From: Syntrophotalea acetylenica
GTDB lineage: Bacteria > Desulfobacterota > Desulfuromonadia > Desulfuromonadales > Syntrophotaleaceae
Reading direction: 5' to 3'
DNA: 64,000 bases
Assembly (NCBI RefSeq): GCF_001888165.1
Contig: NZ_CP015455.1
Coordinates: forward strand, 2,722,001-2,786,000
Below, piece after piece: positions 2,931 to 62,797 of the stretch (position 1 is the stretch's first letter; the number at the start of each line of letters is the position of its first letter). The notes under the pieces are model-generated. The model worked only from the letters and a program-made list of their open reading frames with translations. It did not search any database and was not told the DNA's origin. The translations under genes and the position numbers were made by a program.

Positions 2931-3170
2931 GCATACTCCTTTAAAGGGAAAACATTTCCAGGCGCCATTGTAGCAACAACCGGCTTTCGCGGACAACATC
3001 TAGCCGCCGTTTCAGCGGCGCCACGTGATTTTTTCCGTTAACCAGACCAGAGCCAGCGCCGCACTGGCCTGGAAGTTAGGCATTGACGGCGGCGGCGCGC
3101 TGCTGCTAACCTGTTAATCAGACAGTTGATGACCGGATTTTTGGACAGATCCGGTCGTACATAGCCAAGC

Positions 3171-3258
3171 CCTGGGGGAGTTGCCAGACTGAGAGTCCCT
3201 TTTTTTGCGGGACAACCCTTCGAACCTGATCCGGGTCATTCCGGCGTAGGGAAGCGGC
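3171..3258 (+). ncRNA. TPP riboswitch (THI element)
   Basis: The stretch contains the THI-box elements in order: GGGGGAG, CTGAGA (3189-3194), the variable P3 arm, then GAACCTGATCCGGGTC and CGTAGGGAAG. It lies directly upstream of thiF-thiS-thiG-thiH-thiE, which fits control of the operon by thiamine pyrophosphate. A terminator hairpin follows at 3287, so the switch most likely acts by premature termination. The 403 bases from 2931 to 3333 hold this leader and no gene. Confidence 0.95.
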
Positions 3259-3264
3259 GCGTAA

Positions 3265-3316
3265 ACGACACCCCCGGAGTGTCGTCAAGGTCGCTTATGC
3301 GGCCTTTTGTTTTTTG
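3265..3316 (+). terminator. Expression platform of the TPP riboswitch
   Basis: Two adjacent hairpins: a 7-bp stem (3265-3271 with 3279-3285), then an 8-bp stem (3287-3294 with 3299-3306, one G-T pair) followed by TTGTTTTTT. The second is an intrinsic terminator that ends three bases before the thiF ribosome site, so read-through would require its disruption. Confidence 0.82.
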
Positions 3317-55098: not shown

Positions 55099-55932
55099 AT
55101 GAAGAAAATTTCCTGGATTCAACCGTTATTGATTATTTCCATTCTGCTGCTGGTCTGTGCACCGGCTTTTTCCGGAAGCCTTGATCCGTTTCAAGGCGAG
55201 AAGGGCGTGCTGAAAATATCCGGAGGGACCGCGCATATTCCTGTCATGAAAGATGCTGCCAAAAAAATCATGGTCATGAATCCTGAGATCCAGATCAGCA
55301 TTGCCGGTGGGGGCTCGGGTGTTGGCATCAAGCAGGTGGGGGAAGGCCTGGTGGCTATCGGTAACAGCGGACGCAAACCGACTGACGAAGAAATTAGCCG
55401 CTATAAGCTCGTTTTGCACAAATGGGCCATTGACGGTGTCGGACCGGTAGTCAATCCCAAAAATCCGGTGAAGGCGCTGAGCAAAAGCCAGATGAAGGAT
55501 ATTTTTGCCGGCAAGATCGAAAACTGGAAAATGCTGGGCGGGGAAGACAGAAAAATAAATATTTACACCCGCGATGAAGCCAGCGGGACCCGGGAGGTCT
55601 TCTGGAAAAAGGGCCTGGACGAGGGAGAGATCATTCCCGGAGCCCATGTCGTGGTATCCAACGGCGCGATGAAATCGGCGATTGCTCAGGACCCCTACGG
55701 TATTGGTTACGTATCTGTCGGTCACATCGATGCGACCGTGGCTCCCGTTGCTCTGGACGGGGTTGTGCCGACCATCGAAACGGTTCAGGAAGGGACTTAT
55801 ACCATCGCCCGCGGTCTTTACAGCAACACCAGGGGGGAGCCATCGGGACTGACAAAAAAATTCCTCGATTTTCTTTTTACGCCGGAGGGCAAGAAGATTA
55901 TTGAAGAAAAAGGATTCATTCCGGTCCGATGA
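55099..55932 (+). CDS. PstS-like periplasmic oxyanion-binding protein
   Basis: A 277-residue secreted binding protein (signal: WIQPLLIISILLLVCAPAFS). The fold is that of PstS: IQISIAGGGSGVGIKQVGEG, VAIGNSGRKPTDEE, VVNPKNPVKALSKSQMKDIFAG and TRDEASGTREVFW, which supply the anion loops. The first loop, normally GSTTV, reads SGGTAHIP. The substrate may be phosphate, but this change and the setting leave room for a related oxyanion. GGAGG precedes the ATG. Its stop overlaps the permease start. Confidence 0.88.
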   Translation: MKKISWIQPLLIISILLLVCAPAFSGSLDPFQGEKGVLKISGGTAHIPVMKDAAKKIMVMNPEIQISIAGGGSGVGIKQVGEGLVAIGNSGRKPTDEEISRYKLVLHKWAIDGVGPVVNPKNPVKALSKSQMKDIFAGKIENWKMLGGEDRKINIYTRDEASGTREVFWKKGLDEGEIIPGAHVVVSNGAMKSAIAQDPYGIGYVSVGHIDATVAPVALDGVVPTIETVQEGTYTIARGLYSNTRGEPSGLTKKFLDFLFTPEGKKIIEEKGFIPVR

Positions 55933-56789
55933 AAAAGATTGGAGAACGGGTTGCGGAGAGGGCATTTTTCCTCTCCGCACTGGCAAGCTCTTTGATCACC
56001 GTTGCCATTCTGGTGTTCATGGTATTCATGGGCTTGCCTCTGATGAGAGAGGGCGGGTTTTACCAACTCCTGGTGAAACCGTGGGCACCGTATCAGGGAG
56101 CCTTCGGTATCTATCCGATGATCGTGGGTACGGCGTGCATTTCACTGCTGGGCTTGGCCGTCGCTTTTCCCCTCAGCCTCGGTTGCTCCTTTCTGATTAC
56201 AACCATTGCTCCGAAACCTGTCAGCCGGGTTTTTCGTCGACTCATCGAGTTGATGACGGGGATCCCAACGGTTATCTATGGTTTCGTGGGTATCTTTCTG
56301 CTTGTTCCATTTGTCCGGGAACTTTTTCAGGACGGATCAGGGATGTGCGTGCTTACCGCGGCCCTGGTGCTCGGCATCATGATCACACCCACCATGACTC
56401 TTTTCTTTTGTGACAGTTTCGCCAGAATTCCCCGATCCTATCTGGATGCCGCCGATGCGCTGGGCGCGAGTCCTGTGCAAAAACTGCTTTATGTTATTCT
56501 TCCCTCAGCGAGAAAGGGGCTGCTTAATGGCGTTATTCTGGCTTTGGGCCGGGCTGTGGGCGACACGCTCGTGGCACTGATGCTGGCTGGCAACTCGGTC
56601 CAGGTTCCCGAATCGGTTCTGGAACCGGCCCGAACCCTTACGGCACATATCGCTCTGGTGATCGCCGCGGATTACGAGAGCCCCGAGTTCCGGTCGATTT
56701 TTTCCTGCGGGGTTGTTCTCTATCTGTTCACCTTGGTGGTAACGTTTCTGGCTCGATATCTCAGTTTTGCGGAGAACAAAAAAGCTTGA
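55929..56789 (+). CDS. PstC-like ABC transporter permease
   Basis: A 286-residue inner-membrane protein with six helices. The EAA loop reads YLDAADALGASPVQKLLYVILPSA, the ATPase contact, and LIELMTGIPTVIYGFVGIF is the PstC/A pore motif. It overlaps both the binding-protein gene (ATGA) and the next permease, so the four transporter genes are one unit. Confidence 0.9.
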   Translation: MKKIGERVAERAFFLSALASSLITVAILVFMVFMGLPLMREGGFYQLLVKPWAPYQGAFGIYPMIVGTACISLLGLAVAFPLSLGCSFLITTIAPKPVSRVFRRLIELMTGIPTVIYGFVGIFLLVPFVRELFQDGSGMCVLTAALVLGIMITPTMTLFFCDSFARIPRSYLDAADALGASPVQKLLYVILPSARKGLLNGVILALGRAVGDTLVALMLAGNSVQVPESVLEPARTLTAHIALVIAADYESPEFRSIFSCGVVLYLFTLVVTFLARYLSFAENKKA

Positions 56790-57670
56790 AACCCCGGACT
56801 CTCGAAATTTTTTCCATTGTTTTTGCGTGGATAGCCGGCCTGATCCTGGTGTCTGCCGTTTTGGTGCTACTCGGATACTTGTTTATCAAAGGATACACCT
56901 GCCTCAATCTGTCTTTGATTTTCGGCGATACCCCTCCGTTGCGGGCGCTGTTATTCAGGGCCCGGGTTTTTGACGGGCTCTTTCCGGCCATTGCCGGCAC
57001 ACTTGTTCTTGTCATTCTGTCCATTGTACTGGCCATCCCGATAGGTATCTCCACGGGCATCTACCTTGCGGAGTATGCCGGTTCACGGATAAAAAGAGCA
57101 CTGGATGCTTTTTTTGATGTTCTGTCCGGTATCCCTTCCATCGTCATCGGACTTTTCGGTTTTTCCTTTGCCGTATTTCTGCACAAACAGTATTCCAACC
57201 GGATCGGTCCGTGCCTGCTCATATCGAGCATTGCACTGTCGTTGCTCGTTTTGCCCTATATTATCCGTACGACCCAGGCGGCTCTCGAGGGTATTCCTTC
57301 GAATATTCGCATGACGGCCCTCGCCTTGGGGGCCACGCGGTTGCAGAATGTTTTTCTGGTACTGATCCCCCGGTCCCTCTCCGGCATCATGAGCGGAATC
57401 ATTCTTGCCATTGGCCGTTGTGCCGAAGATACGGCGGTTATTATGCTGACCGGGGCTGTTGCCTCTGCCGGGGTGCCGCGTTCTGTTTTTGCCCAATTCG
57501 AAGCGCTGCCCTTTTATATCTATTACATTTCATCCCAGTATTCCGATCCCGAGGAACTGATGCGGGGGTATGGGGCATCCATTATCCTCCTGCTTTTGTG
57601 TGCCCTCCTTTTCGCAGTAGCCTATGGTATCAGGAAGGGATTGTCGCACTTCGTATTTTACCGGCCATGA
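56786..57670 (+). CDS. PstA-like ABC transporter permease
   Basis: A 294-residue permease with six helices. FFDVLSGIPSIVIGLFGFSF is the pore motif and NIRMTALALGATRLQNVFLVLIP the EAA loop. The start is a TTG at 56786 overlapping the TGA of the pstC-like gene; no ATG is available nearby. Its end overlaps the ATPase gene by 4 bases. Confidence 0.9.
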   Translation: MKPRTLEIFSIVFAWIAGLILVSAVLVLLGYLFIKGYTCLNLSLIFGDTPPLRALLFRARVFDGLFPAIAGTLVLVILSIVLAIPIGISTGIYLAEYAGSRIKRALDAFFDVLSGIPSIVIGLFGFSFAVFLHKQYSNRIGPCLLISSIALSLLVLPYIIRTTQAALEGIPSNIRMTALALGATRLQNVFLVLIPRSLSGIMSGIILAIGRCAEDTAVIMLTGAVASAGVPRSVFAQFEALPFYIYYISSQYSDPEELMRGYGASIILLLLCALLFAVAYGIRKGLSHFVFYRP

Positions 57671-58383
57671 GCCAGAGCCAAACCATGACTGAAGCGATCA
57701 AAATCCGCGTCGAAAATCTATTTTTTTCCTACCGGAACCGGCTGATACTGAAAGATGTCAACGTGAATTTTGCCGAGAATGCGATTACGGCTCTTACCGG
57801 GCCTTCCGGTGTCGGCAAATCCACATTTCTCATGACTCTCAATCGTCTGTGGGAAAACGTGTCGGATGCGGATATGAGCGGGGCGGTGGAGATTAAGCTG
57901 CAAGGCAGATTTCGTGACGTCTATGCTCCCGCCATGCCGGTGACGGAGTTGAGGAAAATGGTGGCCATGGTTTTCCAGGCCCCCAATCCTCTGCCCATGA
58001 GCATTCACAAAAATATCGCCTTTCCTCTGAAACTGGCCGGCGAAAGAAACCGGAAGCTGATCGAGCACAAGGTGGAACACGCATTGCGGATGGCGAATTT
58101 GTGGGACGAGGTCAAGGATCGGCTGAATGATGATGCTCGCAGCCTTTCAGGGGGACAACAGCAGCGACTGTGCATTGCGCGTGCGCTGACCCTGGAACCG
58201 GAAGTGTTACTCCTGGACGAGCCTACCTCATCCCTGGATCAGGCGTCGATGGCAGCGATTGAAGAGCTTCTTGTGGGGCTGAAGGATCGCCTGACCATTC
58301 TGCTGGTTTCCCATTATCTGGAGCAAGTAAGCCGTATTTCCGATCATATCGTCACGTTTGATGACAGTACCGTTGTTTCCTGA
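57667..58383 (+). CDS. PstB-like ABC transporter ATPase
   Basis: A 238-residue ATPase with Walker A GPSGVGKST (45-53), the PstB-type MVFQAPNPLPMSIHKNIAFPL, signature SLSGGQQQRLCIARAL (about 160) and Walker B VLLLDEPTSSLD. The PNPLPMSI stretch is typical of phosphate-type importers. It is the last of the four overlapping transporter genes; no phoU gene follows, unlike common pst operons. Confidence 0.9.
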   Translation: MSQSQTMTEAIKIRVENLFFSYRNRLILKDVNVNFAENAITALTGPSGVGKSTFLMTLNRLWENVSDADMSGAVEIKLQGRFRDVYAPAMPVTELRKMVAMVFQAPNPLPMSIHKNIAFPLKLAGERNRKLIEHKVEHALRMANLWDEVKDRLNDDARSLSGGQQQRLCIARALTLEPEVLLLDEPTSSLDQASMAAIEELLVGLKDRLTILLVSHYLEQVSRISDHIVTFDDSTVVS

Positions 58384-58475: not shown

Positions 58476-58946
58476 ATGCTGTCCCTCCATATTCCCGACA
58501 AAGAAAGCCTCACAATTGAACATGTCATTCTCGATTTCAACGGCACGCTTGCTGTCGATGGCAAGCTGATTCCCGGGGTCGCCTCACGACTCGAAGAGTT
58601 GAGTCCATTGGTTTCCCTGCATGTCATTACCGCCGATACCAACGCGAGTGCCCGCTCGGAACTGGCGAAGATTTCCTGTACGTTGAAAATTATCGGTAAA
58701 AACCGGCAGGATCAGGCCAAACTGGAATATGCCGAGAATCTGGGTCTGAAAAGTGTACTGGCGATTGGAAATGGGAGGAATGATGGCATGTTGCTGCAAC
58801 ATGCGGCCTTGGGAGTCTGTGTTGTTCAGAAAGAAGGAGCCGCTATCGCTGCGATGCAAGCTGCGGATATTGTCTGTAACGATATCAACGATGCTCTGGA
58901 CCTGCTGCTACAGCCACATCGGTTAACTGCAACGATGAGGAACTGA
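58476..58946 (+). CDS. HAD hydrolase, soluble P-type-ATPase-like (COG4087 type)
   Basis: A 156-residue HAD protein. The nucleophile loop reads VILDFNGTLAVDG (DxNGT, the form found in this group), followed by LHVITADTNASAR and AIGNGRNDGMLLQHAALG, the Mg-binding motif. It has no membrane part and no cap domain, so it could be a phosphatase on a large or open substrate. It follows the ATPase gene by 92 bases on the same strand and likely belongs to the transporter cluster. Confidence 0.82.
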   Translation: MLSLHIPDKESLTIEHVILDFNGTLAVDGKLIPGVASRLEELSPLVSLHVITADTNASARSELAKISCTLKIIGKNRQDQAKLEYAENLGLKSVLAIGNGRNDGMLLQHAALGVCVVQKEGAAIAAMQAADIVCNDINDALDLLLQPHRLTATMRN

Positions 58947-59102
58947 CCGGCCTGTTGGGAGAATCTCTGTGGCGAACTGGGAACGGCCTGCGGCAACCAG
59001 GAATATGCAGCGGGCAGTTTGATACCTTCGCAATAACAAATATAGTTTTAACGACAGCGGTGGATTGAACCGGTTTCCATGGAACGTGCAAAGGGGGAAA
59101 AC

Positions 59103-60107
59103 ATGCCCTGGGCGAATTGCAACCTGGAAATCGATGCCGATGCGGCCATTCGGCAATTGGAGGCGTATATTCGCCAGACAGCCGGAGAGCACGATGCCCA
59201 GGGACTCCTGACAGGGCTCAGCGGAGGCATCGACTCCGCCGTTCTGGCCTGTCTGGCGGTGCGCGCCCTGGGACCGGACAAGGTTCACGTTGCCTACCTG
59301 TTTGATCGGCACAGCGAAAAAGACAGTCGCGCCAAGGCTGAACTGGTGGCCAACTGGCTGGGCCTGAAGCTGGAAATCGAAGATATCAGCCGCGAAATGG
59401 CGAAGCGGGGAGTTTACGCCTCCCCGATCATGAGCGGCAAAGGGCAGCCCCAATGGTTCAACCGGCTGGTTCAAAACCTCTACCAGCGCCTGTTCGGAGA
59501 AACCCCTTTCATGTCCTCCTTGCGACTCGGCAGTCAGGAGACATCGTTTTCCGCCTGCAAGAGGCGCATCTACGACCTCGCCATCCGGCCCATCGTCAAC
59601 GGCTTTGACATACGCCACATCTACCGCCGGACCCGACTGGAACAAGTGGCCGTAGAAAACGCCTGGCTGCTGCTCGGTGGCGCCAACCGCTCTGAAATCC
59701 TTGTCGGCTGGTTCGTCAAAGGCGGCATCGACGACCTGCCCCTGCAACCCCTTTCAGGCCTTTATAAAACCCAGGTGCGTCAGTTGGCGGCGGCGCTGGG
59801 CGTGCCTGAAAGAATTCGAGAATGCGCGCCCAGCCCGGACATGCGCAACGGGATAACCGACGAATTCGGCATGGGCATCAGCTATCGGACTCTCGATATT
59901 ATCCTGGACCTGCTGGCCCGGGATCTGCCCGACCCGACCATTCAGGCCAGCGGCGTCTCACCCCGGGATCTGGCCCTGGTTCGCACGCTGCGCCGCCTCT
60001 CCGCCTGGAAGCGCGCCACCACCCCGGCCACGCCCCCGGTCGACGGCGGCCCCGCCAGCGCATTGCGGGTGACATCCCGACAGAAGTCCTGCCTCCGCAC
60101 GGAATAA
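59103..60107 (+). CDS. NAD-synthase-like PP-loop ATPase
   Basis: A 334-residue protein. The PP-loop is GLSGGIDSAVLACLAVRALG, and LLLGGANRSEILVGWFVKGG, PLQPLSGLYKTQVRQLAAALGVPERI and NGITDEFGMGISYRTLDIIL follow the NadE order. It departs from NadE in the segment usually holding 'aRxRM' and has a longer middle (about residues 95-170), so the substrate may differ. Start at the ATG with AGGGGG 5 bases before. It is 156 bases after the HAD gene. A glutaminase domain is absent, so ammonia would be the nitrogen donor. Confidence 0.8.
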   Translation: MPWANCNLEIDADAAIRQLEAYIRQTAGEHDAQGLLTGLSGGIDSAVLACLAVRALGPDKVHVAYLFDRHSEKDSRAKAELVANWLGLKLEIEDISREMAKRGVYASPIMSGKGQPQWFNRLVQNLYQRLFGETPFMSSLRLGSQETSFSACKRRIYDLAIRPIVNGFDIRHIYRRTRLEQVAVENAWLLLGGANRSEILVGWFVKGGIDDLPLQPLSGLYKTQVRQLAAALGVPERIRECAPSPDMRNGITDEFGMGISYRTLDIILDLLARDLPDPTIQASGVSPRDLALVRTLRRLSAWKRATTPATPPVDGGPASALRVTSRQKSCLRTE

Positions 60108-60205: not shown

Positions 60206-61042
60206 TCACAAAGGGCGGCAGACATATATCGGGTAATAATCGTACCAGTATTTTCCCCGGCAATGCCGTCGCTCAAAGGTGAAACCGGCCTTATTCAACA
60301 ATGCTTCCCAGGCATTTCTCGTAGGGATGGTGTTCAACCCGCCAAACAGATAGCGCCGGATTATCTGATATTCGGATAATGAAAGCATGCCGGATTCATG
60401 ATCCCTGTCGACCGCCGAAAACACTTTCGCGTTATCCAGGACAAAGCCGGCTCTGTCGTAGGCAATATCAACATATCCCTGCAGGCGCATGCTCAAACCA
60501 AACCCGGCTTCGTCTATCAGGTGCCGGCGGAACTTTTCGAGGAGATCCCGACGGTGCTCCGGTTTGTCCAAAACCGCTTCGGGCATCAGACAATGTCGCG
60601 TAACAAAACAGCCTTTGCGGGACAAAGCCGCTCTTATCGCGCAAAGCAGATTTGAATACTTGTCAACTGGAACGATATTGCCAAAAACACCATCCCCGAG
60701 AATGAAATCCGGAGCTTCCGGTAAAATGCTCTCCAGGGCGCTCCAATCGCCGTGCACCACCTGCTCCTTGTGCCGCAGCGCCGGCGCCAGCCAATCCTTG
60801 TAGGTGGCAATGGCCGCCTCGCTATGATCGATGGATATCAATTGACTGCAGTGTTGTGCCGCCATATTCCGCAACTCGGGCGTCATCCCCAGAACCACGC
60901 CGATCGAGCTGTTTTCGGGCAGACAGCCGGCATACACGCCGACCTCGCAGGGGTCGGGAGAACCTGCGGCGTAGCGTTTTTTGTCTGTCTGGCTCATGAT
61001 TCTGGAATAGACGACATCGGAATTCCATTCAATATTTGCCAT
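60206..61042 (-). CDS. SAM-methyltransferase-like protein
   Basis: A 278-residue protein with a Rossmann methyltransferase core: SIGVVLGMTPELRNMAAQHC (motif I region), LISIDHSEAAIATYKD (motif II, acidic residue) and APDFILGDGVFGNIV (motif IV). The C-terminal third is aromatic. GAGG lies 6 bases before the ATG at 61042. It starts 8 bases after the ATP-grasp gene, so the two are co-translated. The substrate is unknown. GC content is lower than the window average. Confidence 0.72.
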   Translation of the reverse strand: MANIEWNSDVVYSRIMSQTDKKRYAAGSPDPCEVGVYAGCLPENSSIGVVLGMTPELRNMAAQHCSQLISIDHSEAAIATYKDWLAPALRHKEQVVHGDWSALESILPEAPDFILGDGVFGNIVPVDKYSNLLCAIRAALSRKGCFVTRHCLMPEAVLDKPEHRRDLLEKFRRHLIDEAGFGLSMRLQGYVDIAYDRAGFVLDNAKVFSAVDRDHESGMLSLSEYQIIRRYLFGGLNTIPTRNAWEALLNKAGFTFERRHCRGKYWYDYYPIYVCRPL

Positions 61043-61050
61043 ACGTGACC

Positions 61051-61908
61051 TCACAGATATTTTTCAATGCCGTGCGACAAGGGGCGGATAACCCTGTCGG
61101 CCCATTCAAGACCAGACTGCCGGCTCAGTGTCGCGGTTTTATTGGCATCGTAAAGAACGACCCTGCCCTCCGAGACGGCATAATCCAACCGGCCAAAATC
61201 GATTTTCAGCTTTTTTCGCAAAACCCTGAGCGCCTCGGGAGCCGGTTCATCCAACAACTCCCTGCTGCAGATATTACTCCCCTTGATAACCGGTTTTTCC
61301 GAGGTAACCACCATGTTTACTTCCTGATCGCCAAAAAGGAAACAGGCCCGCATGCGATACAGACCATTACCGTCGTACTCGGGCAGGAACTTTTCCACCA
61401 CCAGATGCCTGTTGCGCCACACCCCTGCCGGAACGTCTGATTTGTCGCGAAAAACAGGATAACTTTCCGGACTTATCGCCCGGATAGCGTGCCAATTCAA
61501 CGTTTCCAAATTGGATGTTTCATTCAGCACCCTGCGGCTATCCCCTTTGGAACTTTTAGCGATATCAGGCATGCCGCCAAAATTGCCATTGGTCTTGACG
61601 ATAACGGGTCCAGCATAATGATCCTCAATCTTCAACAGGTGCTGGCTTACTATCGCTTTGGAATTATCAGGGAAGTTTCCGTTTAGAACCACCGGGTATT
61701 TTTTGGATATCAAGCGATAAACAAGCGGCACTCTGGTGAGATCAACATGCAGAAGAGCGACATCGGCATCAGGAAAGGGCCACTTCGTGCTTATCACCAC
61801 CCGGTGGCCCCGGTCCTGCCACAAGGGTATCAAATAGCTGATCAGATAGGAGGAGTTGAAGACCGATTTCGGCTTGTCCGTAACAATGGCAATGGTCTTT
61901 TTATGCAT
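61051..61908 (-). CDS. ATP-grasp-like protein
   Basis: A 285-residue protein. GPVIVKTNGNFGGMPDI resembles the ATP-binding lysine strand and glycine loop, HLVVEKFLPEYDGNG the hinge, and LDYAVSEGRVVLYDANKTAT the Mg-binding Asp/Asn pair of ATP-grasp ligases. The N-terminal domain (IAIVTDKPKSVFNSSYLISY) fits the pre-ATP-grasp fold. Such enzymes form amide or ester bonds; the partner methyltransferase gene follows by 8 bases. No precursor-peptide gene is obvious next to it. Confidence 0.72.
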   Translation of the reverse strand: MHKKTIAIVTDKPKSVFNSSYLISYLIPLWQDRGHRVVISTKWPFPDADVALLHVDLTRVPLVYRLISKKYPVVLNGNFPDNSKAIVSQHLLKIEDHYAGPVIVKTNGNFGGMPDIAKSSKGDSRRVLNETSNLETLNWHAIRAISPESYPVFRDKSDVPAGVWRNRHLVVEKFLPEYDGNGLYRMRACFLFGDQEVNMVVTSEKPVIKGSNICSRELLDEPAPEALRVLRKKLKIDFGRLDYAVSEGRVVLYDANKTATLSRQSGLEWADRVIRPLSHGIEKYL

Positions 61909-62215
61909 TTTCAGTCACCCGATATCCCAAACCATTATTTACTGCGCCATACCGAAACGGGGCACTCCCTGACAGGGAAAGTGTTCCGTGACTCCCGGTA
62001 TGTTTTTTTCCAACCCCGGCTACGGGGACCTCAAAACTCTCTCGGAAATTGTATACTATCAGGGAGCAGAAGGCTATGTACCCTTGCGACCTGGCCGGGT
62101 CACATAACCTTACAAACCAGAAAAGAGAATAGCAAAGTCTCCAACGGCGGCAATATACCCCCGGACCTTTTGGACTGAGCCAGAAGGGCAACCATCAAAG
62201 CAAAGGATCGGACAC
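61909..62215. other. Divergent intergenic region
   Basis: 307 bases between the ATP-grasp gene (minus) and the DUF937 gene (plus). A minus-strand TATACAAT (near 62048-62055) could be a -10 element, without a clear -35. Open frames here lack ribosome sites. I see nothing else of note. Confidence 0.5.
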
Positions 62216-62797
62216 ATGCAGATCACCGACATCCTCGCCAAAATGGGCGGACTCCAATCTATCGCGCGAGAACTGGACATCGACGAAACCCAGGCTGCAA
62301 GCGGTGCCGAAGCTCTCATCCCGGCTATCCTCGGCGGGTTCAAGAAGCAGGCACAATCGCAGCCCACGGGTCTTGAAGGCCTCGGCGGCCTGCTCGGCCA
62401 ACTAGGCGGTGGCGGCCTTTTCGACCAGGTGCTGGCAGCGCAGCCGACGGACGTAAGCCGCGGCAACAACATCCTTGGAACAATCTTCGGGTCCAAAGAC
62501 GTCAGCCGTGCTGTCGCACAGAACGCAGCATCACAATCGGGCCTCGACCAGACACTGCTGAAAAAGATGCTGCCGATGCTGGCGATGCTGGTTACGGGCT
62601 ACATGGCGAAGCAGGGTAGTACCGCCACCACAGCATCACAGCGCTCCCCGAAAGGGCTCGCCAGCCTGCTGAAGGGCCTGCTTGGCGGTCGCGGCGCCAC
62701 AACGTCAAACTTTGCCGCAATGCTCGACCTGAACGGCGACGGCAATCCGCTGGACGACATCATCCGGATGGCCGGAAAGACAATGCGCCAGCCGTAG
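62216..62797 (+). CDS. DUF937 (YidB-like) protein
   Basis: A 193-residue protein with the DUF937 pattern: an N-terminal helix pair (MQITDILAKMGGLQSIAREL), EALIPAILGGFKKQA, Gly-rich stretches (LGGLLGQLGGGGLFDQ), a central LKKMLPMLAMLVTGYM and a terminal MLDLNGDGNPLDDIIRMAG with an EF-hand-like DLNGDG loop. E. coli YidB belongs to this family; its function is unknown. AAGGA precedes the ATG. Confidence 0.88.
   Translation: MQITDILAKMGGLQSIARELDIDETQAASGAEALIPAILGGFKKQAQSQPTGLEGLGGLLGQLGGGGLFDQVLAAQPTDVSRGNNILGTIFGSKDVSRAVAQNAASQSGLDQTLLKKMLPMLAMLVTGYMAKQGSTATTASQRSPKGLASLLKGLLGGRGATTSNFAAMLDLNGDGNPLDDIIRMAGKTMRQP

Follow-up and report, generated by a model that had tools for sequence, protein, structure and literature searches.

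The locus analysed here raises the question of whether two adjacent genes of Syntrophotalea acetylenica, encoding an ATP-grasp protein and a methyltransferase, form a working unit, and what such a unit would make. The pair lies in a stretch of 64,000 nucleotides (the window; positions 2,722,001 to 2,786,000 of contig NZ_CP015455.1) of a 3.2 Mb genome. A first-pass annotation had described an ATP-grasp-like ligase and a methyltransferase-like protein 8 bases apart, and both genes were found on the minus strand at the coordinates it gave.

Organization of the gene pair

The features of the locus are as follows.

59079-60107, pointing towards the pair: NAD-synthase-like gene, flanking the pair
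60206-61042, minus strand: class I SAM-dependent methyltransferase gene, ATG start, 278 aa, second of the pair
61049-61052, minus strand: GAGG motif read from the sequence, putative ribosome-binding site of the methyltransferase gene
61051-61908, minus strand: ATP-grasp gene, ATG start, 285 aa, first of the pair
61909-62215, minus strand: gap upstream of the pair, reaching to the divergent DUF937 gene; a promoter is expected there
62216-62797, divergent from the pair: DUF937 gene, flanking the pair

Exactly 8 bases separate the stop codon of the ATP-grasp gene from the ATG of the methyltransferase gene, whose frame also contains an additional upstream GTG at 61054. The GAGG at 61052-61049 overlaps the ATP-grasp stop codon, which suggests that translation of the two genes may be coupled. 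As the first-pass annotation had noted, no known pathway genes adjoin the pair: a Pfam/NCBIfam scan of the neighbours recognised none, the flanks being the NAD-synthase-like and DUF937 genes. Frames of at least 20 aa in the two flanking gaps, judged by eye, included no recognisable precursor peptide, again in agreement with the annotation. Its remark on low GC held for the comparison with the window (51.8% for the pair vs 59.4%, within the lowest 2% of 1703-base windows), but two nearby stretches are equally low in GC, so that the pair does not stand out: by eye, the first (55099-58383, 52.6%) holds phosphate-transport genes and the second (58476-58946, 50.7%) is a HAD-like gene.

No sigma-70-like site was found on the minus strand of the gap 61909-62215. 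The 152 bases directly upstream of the pair (61909-62060) fold no more strongly than shuffled sequences (z 0.33), occur in a single copy in the genome and are matched in none of the 5 same-genus genomes searched. A riboswitch or the end of a mobile element upstream of the pair was considered and is unsupported, given the hairpin score relative to shuffles and the lack of repetition in the genome. The only Rfam match in the window at gathering thresholds was a TPP riboswitch far from the pair (RF00059, 59.7 bits, 3164-3270). A comparison of flank synteny with relatives did not find an empty insertion site. A search of 7 relatives for the DUF937 neighbour, run without a positive control, gave no match. 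The NAD-synthase-like neighbour was matched at full length in genomes G002 (56%) and G006 (33%), and in the same-genus genome G004 over 51 residues. The NAD-synthase-like gene passes the Pfam NAD_synthase and TIGR00552 cut-offs, lies below the other NCBIfam NAD-synthase cut-offs (best 154 vs 255 bits) and has a full-length match in one of 5 same-genus genomes.

The ATP-grasp protein

The ATP-grasp protein alone matched no Pfam or NCBIfam model at E up to 1, RimK/LysX family models included, and single-sequence searches of the PDB with either partner gave nothing better than E 0.5. When 71 members of the ATP-grasp family were scanned, no Pfam family was matched by more than one of them at E up to 0.1. 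The family itself is coherent: a profile built without the window protein matched that protein at E 1.5e-89 for 10,000 sequences.

An AlphaFold model built from the 71 sequences (pLDDT 94) has an ATP-grasp fold, with Foldseek E-values down to 8.5e-9. The best superpositions (VIA) were with LysX (3vpd, Z 16.1), RimK (5zct, Z 16.0) and ArgX (3vpb, Z 15.9), followed by the kinase PPIP5K2 (Z 15.1) and glutathione synthetase (Z 14.4). The protein thus shares with LysX, ArgX and RimK the same compact fold over its whole 285 residues at Z about 16, the superposition onto LysX/RimK covering 233-234 residues, but differs from them in identity (11-14%), and no LysW or S6 link was seen. LysX, ArgX and RimK activate a carboxylate as an acyl phosphate and join it to an amine, and formation of an amide or peptide bond is proposed for the window protein because these structural neighbours catalyse it. 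Since kinases (PPIP5K and ITPK, Z 13-15) come to within about one Z unit of the best ligases, we infer ligase rather than kinase chemistry with reserve.

Residues K105, D242 and N256 are invariant in the 71 sequences and D254 is conserved in at least 90% of them. We take K105 to be the phosphate-binding lysine and D242, D254 and N256 to be the Mg-binding acidic and asparagine residues; the latter three align with D, E and N of the microviridin ligase AMdnB. This conservation fits an active enzyme. Searched against the PDB with an E limit of 1, the family profile matched microviridin ligases only, and these weakly (E 0.015 and 0.097). The graspetide ligase MdnB resembles the window protein in fold and aligned metal-binding motif, but the profile match reaches only E 0.015 and no precursor peptide was recognised at the window pair.

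The methyltransferase and the LGVTPE family

Nor did the window methyltransferase, searched alone, match any Pfam or NCBIfam model (E up to 1). A profile of 16 other paired methyltransferases, built without the window and G004 copies, matched the window protein at E 5.8e-16. Among 1012 frames called around the loci (described below), this profile gave 12 matches at E up to 10, which were confined to 10 partners, the window copy and the G004 copy; the frame caller, working on frames of at least 70 aa, had missed four other partners from this set. Methyltransf_11 was matched at E up to 0.1 by 11 of the 15 rows of the methyltransferase alignment, from which the frame-broken copy of locus L057 was left out.

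The structural model is of moderate confidence (pLDDT 72) and superposes on class I methyltransferases (VIA Z 18.5; 998 of 1000 chains aligned at Z of at least 8), the best rows including the small-molecule enzymes CysG(N-16) and NodS. Motif I of class I SAM methyltransferases is GxGxG; it is absent from this family, which has G-x-T-x-E in its place. The consensus is LGVTPE, with G52, T54 and E56 invariant in 15/15 rows while the other letters vary. The segment GPPLRP precedes motif I in the consensus of the other rows and is absent from the window protein, where SPDPCEV stands instead. The window methyltransferase is a very divergent member of this family, named here the LGVTPE family. The best NCBIfam match of a related methyltransferase, that of locus L016, was the DVU_1556 family methyltransferase (NF045667, 31.5 bits), and ligases resembling the DVU_1553 family AMP ligase (NF045666) lie near the methyltransferases of L139 and L144; all these matches fall below the curated cut-offs (155 and 300 bits), and the window methyltransferase has none.

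The analysis thus supports the first-pass annotation on both folds, ATP-grasp and class I methyltransferase, neither proving to be unrelated. Of the profile searches it had called for, those with either protein alone against Pfam/NCBIfam found nothing, and it was the family profiles and models that supported the two assignments. Both families are new, and of a familiar kind.

Recurrence of the pair

A scan of genomes of 84,980 species gave 205 relatives of the ATP-grasp family, and the best 80 of these are the loci considered below. The 80 include dependent loci: L082 and L098 are overlapping parts of a single contig, and the contigs of L039, L041 and L056 match those from which L012, L013 and L014 had been taken. 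Of the 80 loci, 13 carry a methyltransferase of the family no more than 2.5 kb from the ATP-grasp gene (L031, L032, L034, L037, L044, L051, L057, L059, L060, L075, L085, L093 and L097); the remaining 67, some of which lie on short contigs, have none within that distance. The paired loci belong to Verrucomicrobiota, Planctomycetota, Spirochaetota, Acidobacteriota, Pseudomonadota and Balneolota, the phylum of the window being the seventh. Further pairs were found in L016 of the same-genus genome G004, in three Pseudomonadota genomes besides the chosen centre, and as a weaker, partial pair in L134. The pair thus occurs side by side across phyla, and the survey of genome neighbourhoods bore out the proposal that it is a recurrent unit.

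In L034 the two proteins are fused in one 603-aa frame, and in several other loci the partner genes overlap or abut. Gene order in the G004 pair (L016) is reversed relative to the window. Among 18 unfused pair loci, the ATP-grasp gene comes first in five (including the window) and the methyltransferase gene in four, while four pairs are convergent and five divergent; adjacency survives changes of gene order and direction. No third gene recurred beside the pair in the 13 loci when frames of at least 90 aa were inspected by eye.

In 398 genomes of Pseudomonadota, the phylum of the centre G448, the methyltransferase was found in seven, the ATP-grasp protein in six and both in four, adjacent in all four. 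These counts are lower bounds, six first-look candidates being scored per genome. With the centre removed, the 397 genomes gave six, five and three, respectively (Fisher p 1.9e-5). Two of the matches outside the four pairs are partial (the methyltransferase of G628 and the ATP-grasp protein of G528). The methyltransferase match of G508 includes one internal TGA, which may lie before the true start; the stop-to-stop reading (L135) begins after it. The three non-centre pairs (L135-L137) may represent one event, because they lie close together in the trees.

In the phylum of the window, the ATP-grasp family was matched in 3 of 395 genomes, and among relatives in 6 of 58. In 395 genomes of this phylum a 3-row methyltransferase profile had two matches at E up to 1e-8, the window and G384. 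In 14 genomes reached through 15 loci, the methyltransferase was matched in 12, once in 11 of them and twice in one. Neither P0001 nor the L016 methyltransferase was matched on plasmids, and the ATP-grasp profile had no match in viral contigs. The available parts of the literature searched, including PMC4431377, PMC2922099 and PMC8939145, do not describe the pair; an earlier mention in a 2009 amidoligase survey is possible.

Phylogeny of the partners

In a tree of 90 ATP-grasp proteins, which excludes duplicate sequences and L025, L030, L063 and L066 (best piece below 600 bases) and from which the 71-sequence alignment was thinned, the window protein groups with eight others (95/96), including those of the methyltransferase-paired loci L031 and L037. 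The paired state required 9 changes on this tree, as compared with a mean of 15 in shuffles. In the methyltransferase tree, the window and G004 copies were nearest to those of L031 and L037, with weak support (65/36) and on a very long branch (4.8). Distances between partners correlate over 17 pairs in a mirror-tree test (r 0.51, p 0.0001), a correlation that fades as similar rows are removed (p 0.0048, 0.025 and 0.098, the last with four rows removed). The frame-broken L057 and the partial L134 were excluded from the pair trees.

Methyltransferase copies without this ATP-grasp gene

Six loci with a methyltransferase copy but without this ATP-grasp gene were read, and other carboxylate-activating ligases were found near the methyltransferase in 4 of them. 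A cyanophycin-synthetase-like ATP-grasp gene lies about 1.7 kb from the methyltransferase in L133 and 63 bases downstream of it in L138, and a PaaK-like AMP ligase is near the methyltransferase in L139 and L144, the latter methyltransferase being a weak family member. L140 holds a truncated, decayed copy near a groES-like gene, and the L135-L137 pairs likewise lie near a groES-like gene (by eye).

In L021 of genome G004, a methyltransferase 76% identical to that of the window stands in a different setting, with no ligase recognised beside it. Upstream of it is a collinear scrap of the 3' end of the ATP-grasp gene, in which 43 bases match at E 5e-5 and a weak similarity (E 0.33) extends to the stop codon; tblastn alone gave E 0.076. 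G004 has lost most of this ATP-grasp gene and retained the methyltransferase, which may act there without this partner. That genome has two other ATP-grasp relatives. Comparison of the window and G004 methyltransferases gave dN 0.13 and dS 0.56-0.62 (dN/dS 0.21 to 0.25 by two methods), a ratio that indicates purifying selection between the two genomes with close copies and does not demonstrate selection after loss of the partner, because it is averaged over both lineages.

Neighbourhoods of ATP-grasp relatives

Genes resembling LdmS, the L-aspartate--L-methionine ligase (NF047900), were detected by phmmer with one of them in 25 of the 80 loci (best 80 of 205), and sulfotransferases, also by phmmer, in 6 of the same 80. 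The LdmS-like genes accompany ATP-grasp relatives, including a paralogue in the window genome, but the scanned genes of L010 and L014 score 185 and 112 bits vs a cut-off of 475, and none lies beside the window pair. L014 contains a GT2 gene, a DegT aminotransferase and an epimerase-containing gene, L077 a bacterial sugar transferase, L050 an epimerase, and L031 and L037 a GT2 gene each; neighbours were scanned in part of the other loci only, so these examples are not a count of glycan-gene frequency. Such neighbours are consistent with transfer of acyl groups to sugars or small molecules.

Several other arrangements were observed. The ATP-grasp paralogue of the window genome (L010:6146-11590; G000:C1 about 1246145-1251589) adjoins an LdmS-like ligase, with a weakly DUF3405-like gene (below cut-off) and a sulfotransferase nearby; the association of ATP-grasp and LdmS-like genes is found again in five relatives. 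On one contig of a Pseudomonadota MAG (L082:532-11316 and L098:6951-8971), five compact ATP-grasp genes follow one another head to tail, another lies close by and a seventh adjoins an LdmS-like gene, an arrangement that looks like a serial-ligase array. The cluster L031:6138-11327 combines a methyltransferase, two ATP-grasp genes, an LdmS-like gene and a Mur-ligase protein resembling the C-terminal half of cyanophycin synthetase. A second methyltransferase occurs near the LGVTPE methyltransferase in L060 and L085 (Methyltransf_2 type) and in L133 (BchU-like).

Discussion

The pair is probably a small working unit, since it is found side by side in distant bacteria, and more than a chance neighbourhood, since each family is conserved across phyla and the methyltransferase shows purifying selection between the window and G004 genomes. 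We consider it reasonably probable that the two enzymes form a ligase-methyltransferase tailoring module. The ATP-grasp enzyme would activate a carboxylate as an acyl phosphate and join it to an amine, giving an amide or peptide bond, and the methyltransferase would transfer a methyl group from SAM to the same molecule, before or after ligation. The module would be self-contained and appears to move between genomes. The neighbours seen elsewhere, namely LdmS-like ligases, sulfotransferases, glycosyltransferases and a second methyltransferase, suggest that the product is either a small metabolite resembling a peptide or a surface glycan decorated with an amino acid.

The latter product leads to a narrower proposal, in which an amino acid is coupled by the ATP-grasp enzyme, through an amide bond, to an amino sugar of a cell-surface glycan and the methyltransferase caps it. 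Some relatives do lie in or near glycan genes (L014, L077, L050, L031 and L037) and sulfotransferases occur in 6 of the best 80 of 205 loci, but the surroundings of the window pair contain no recognised glycan gene, and the proposal, a special case of the tailoring module, seems rather unlikely as stated. Enzymes of the LysX, RimK and ArgX type, the closest folds, act on proteins, as the RimK-RpsF and ArgX-LysW complexes among the matched structures show; the pair could accordingly add amino acids to a protein and methylate the tail or the protein. No third gene recurs beside the pair in the 13 loci (frames of at least 90 aa, by eye), however, and modification of a universal protein fits poorly with an ATP-grasp gene occurring as sporadically as in 3 of 395 genomes of the phylum and 6 of 58 relatives, which makes protein modification quite improbable.

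A functional separation of the two genes in this organism, with the methyltransferase acting alone or with another ligase and the operon a relic, is suggested by G004, which kept the methyltransferase after loss of most of the ATP-grasp gene, and by the strong divergence of the window methyltransferase. We regard it as improbable, as both window frames are intact and 8 bases apart and the ATP-grasp protein retains the invariant residues of its family. A RiPP system of the graspetide type, acting on a ribosomal precursor peptide, is very improbable. In its favour, the family profile matched nothing in the PDB at E up to 1 except microviridin ligases, weakly (E 0.015 and 0.097), but no precursor-like frame was seen by eye in the gaps beside the window pair, the partners overlap or abut in several other loci, where frames of at least 70 aa were called, and no NCBIfam or Pfam model matches.

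The two-enzyme tailoring module, then, remains the preferred reading, and a broader form of it is offered tentatively. The LGVTPE methyltransferase, with its altered SAM-binding loop, might belong to a mobile minimal module in which it usually works with a carboxylate-activating ligase and exchanges that partner (compact ATP-grasp, cyanophycin-synthetase-like ATP-grasp or AMP ligase). In at least seven phyla the two would then make a class of methylated peptides or amides independently of NRPS and RiPP pathways. The ATP-grasp family and the window methyltransferase recur together across phyla, yet go unrecognised by Pfam and NCBIfam models. If the pair makes methylated amides, it would be a very small biosynthetic route, of a kind that we expect standard cluster finders to miss easily.
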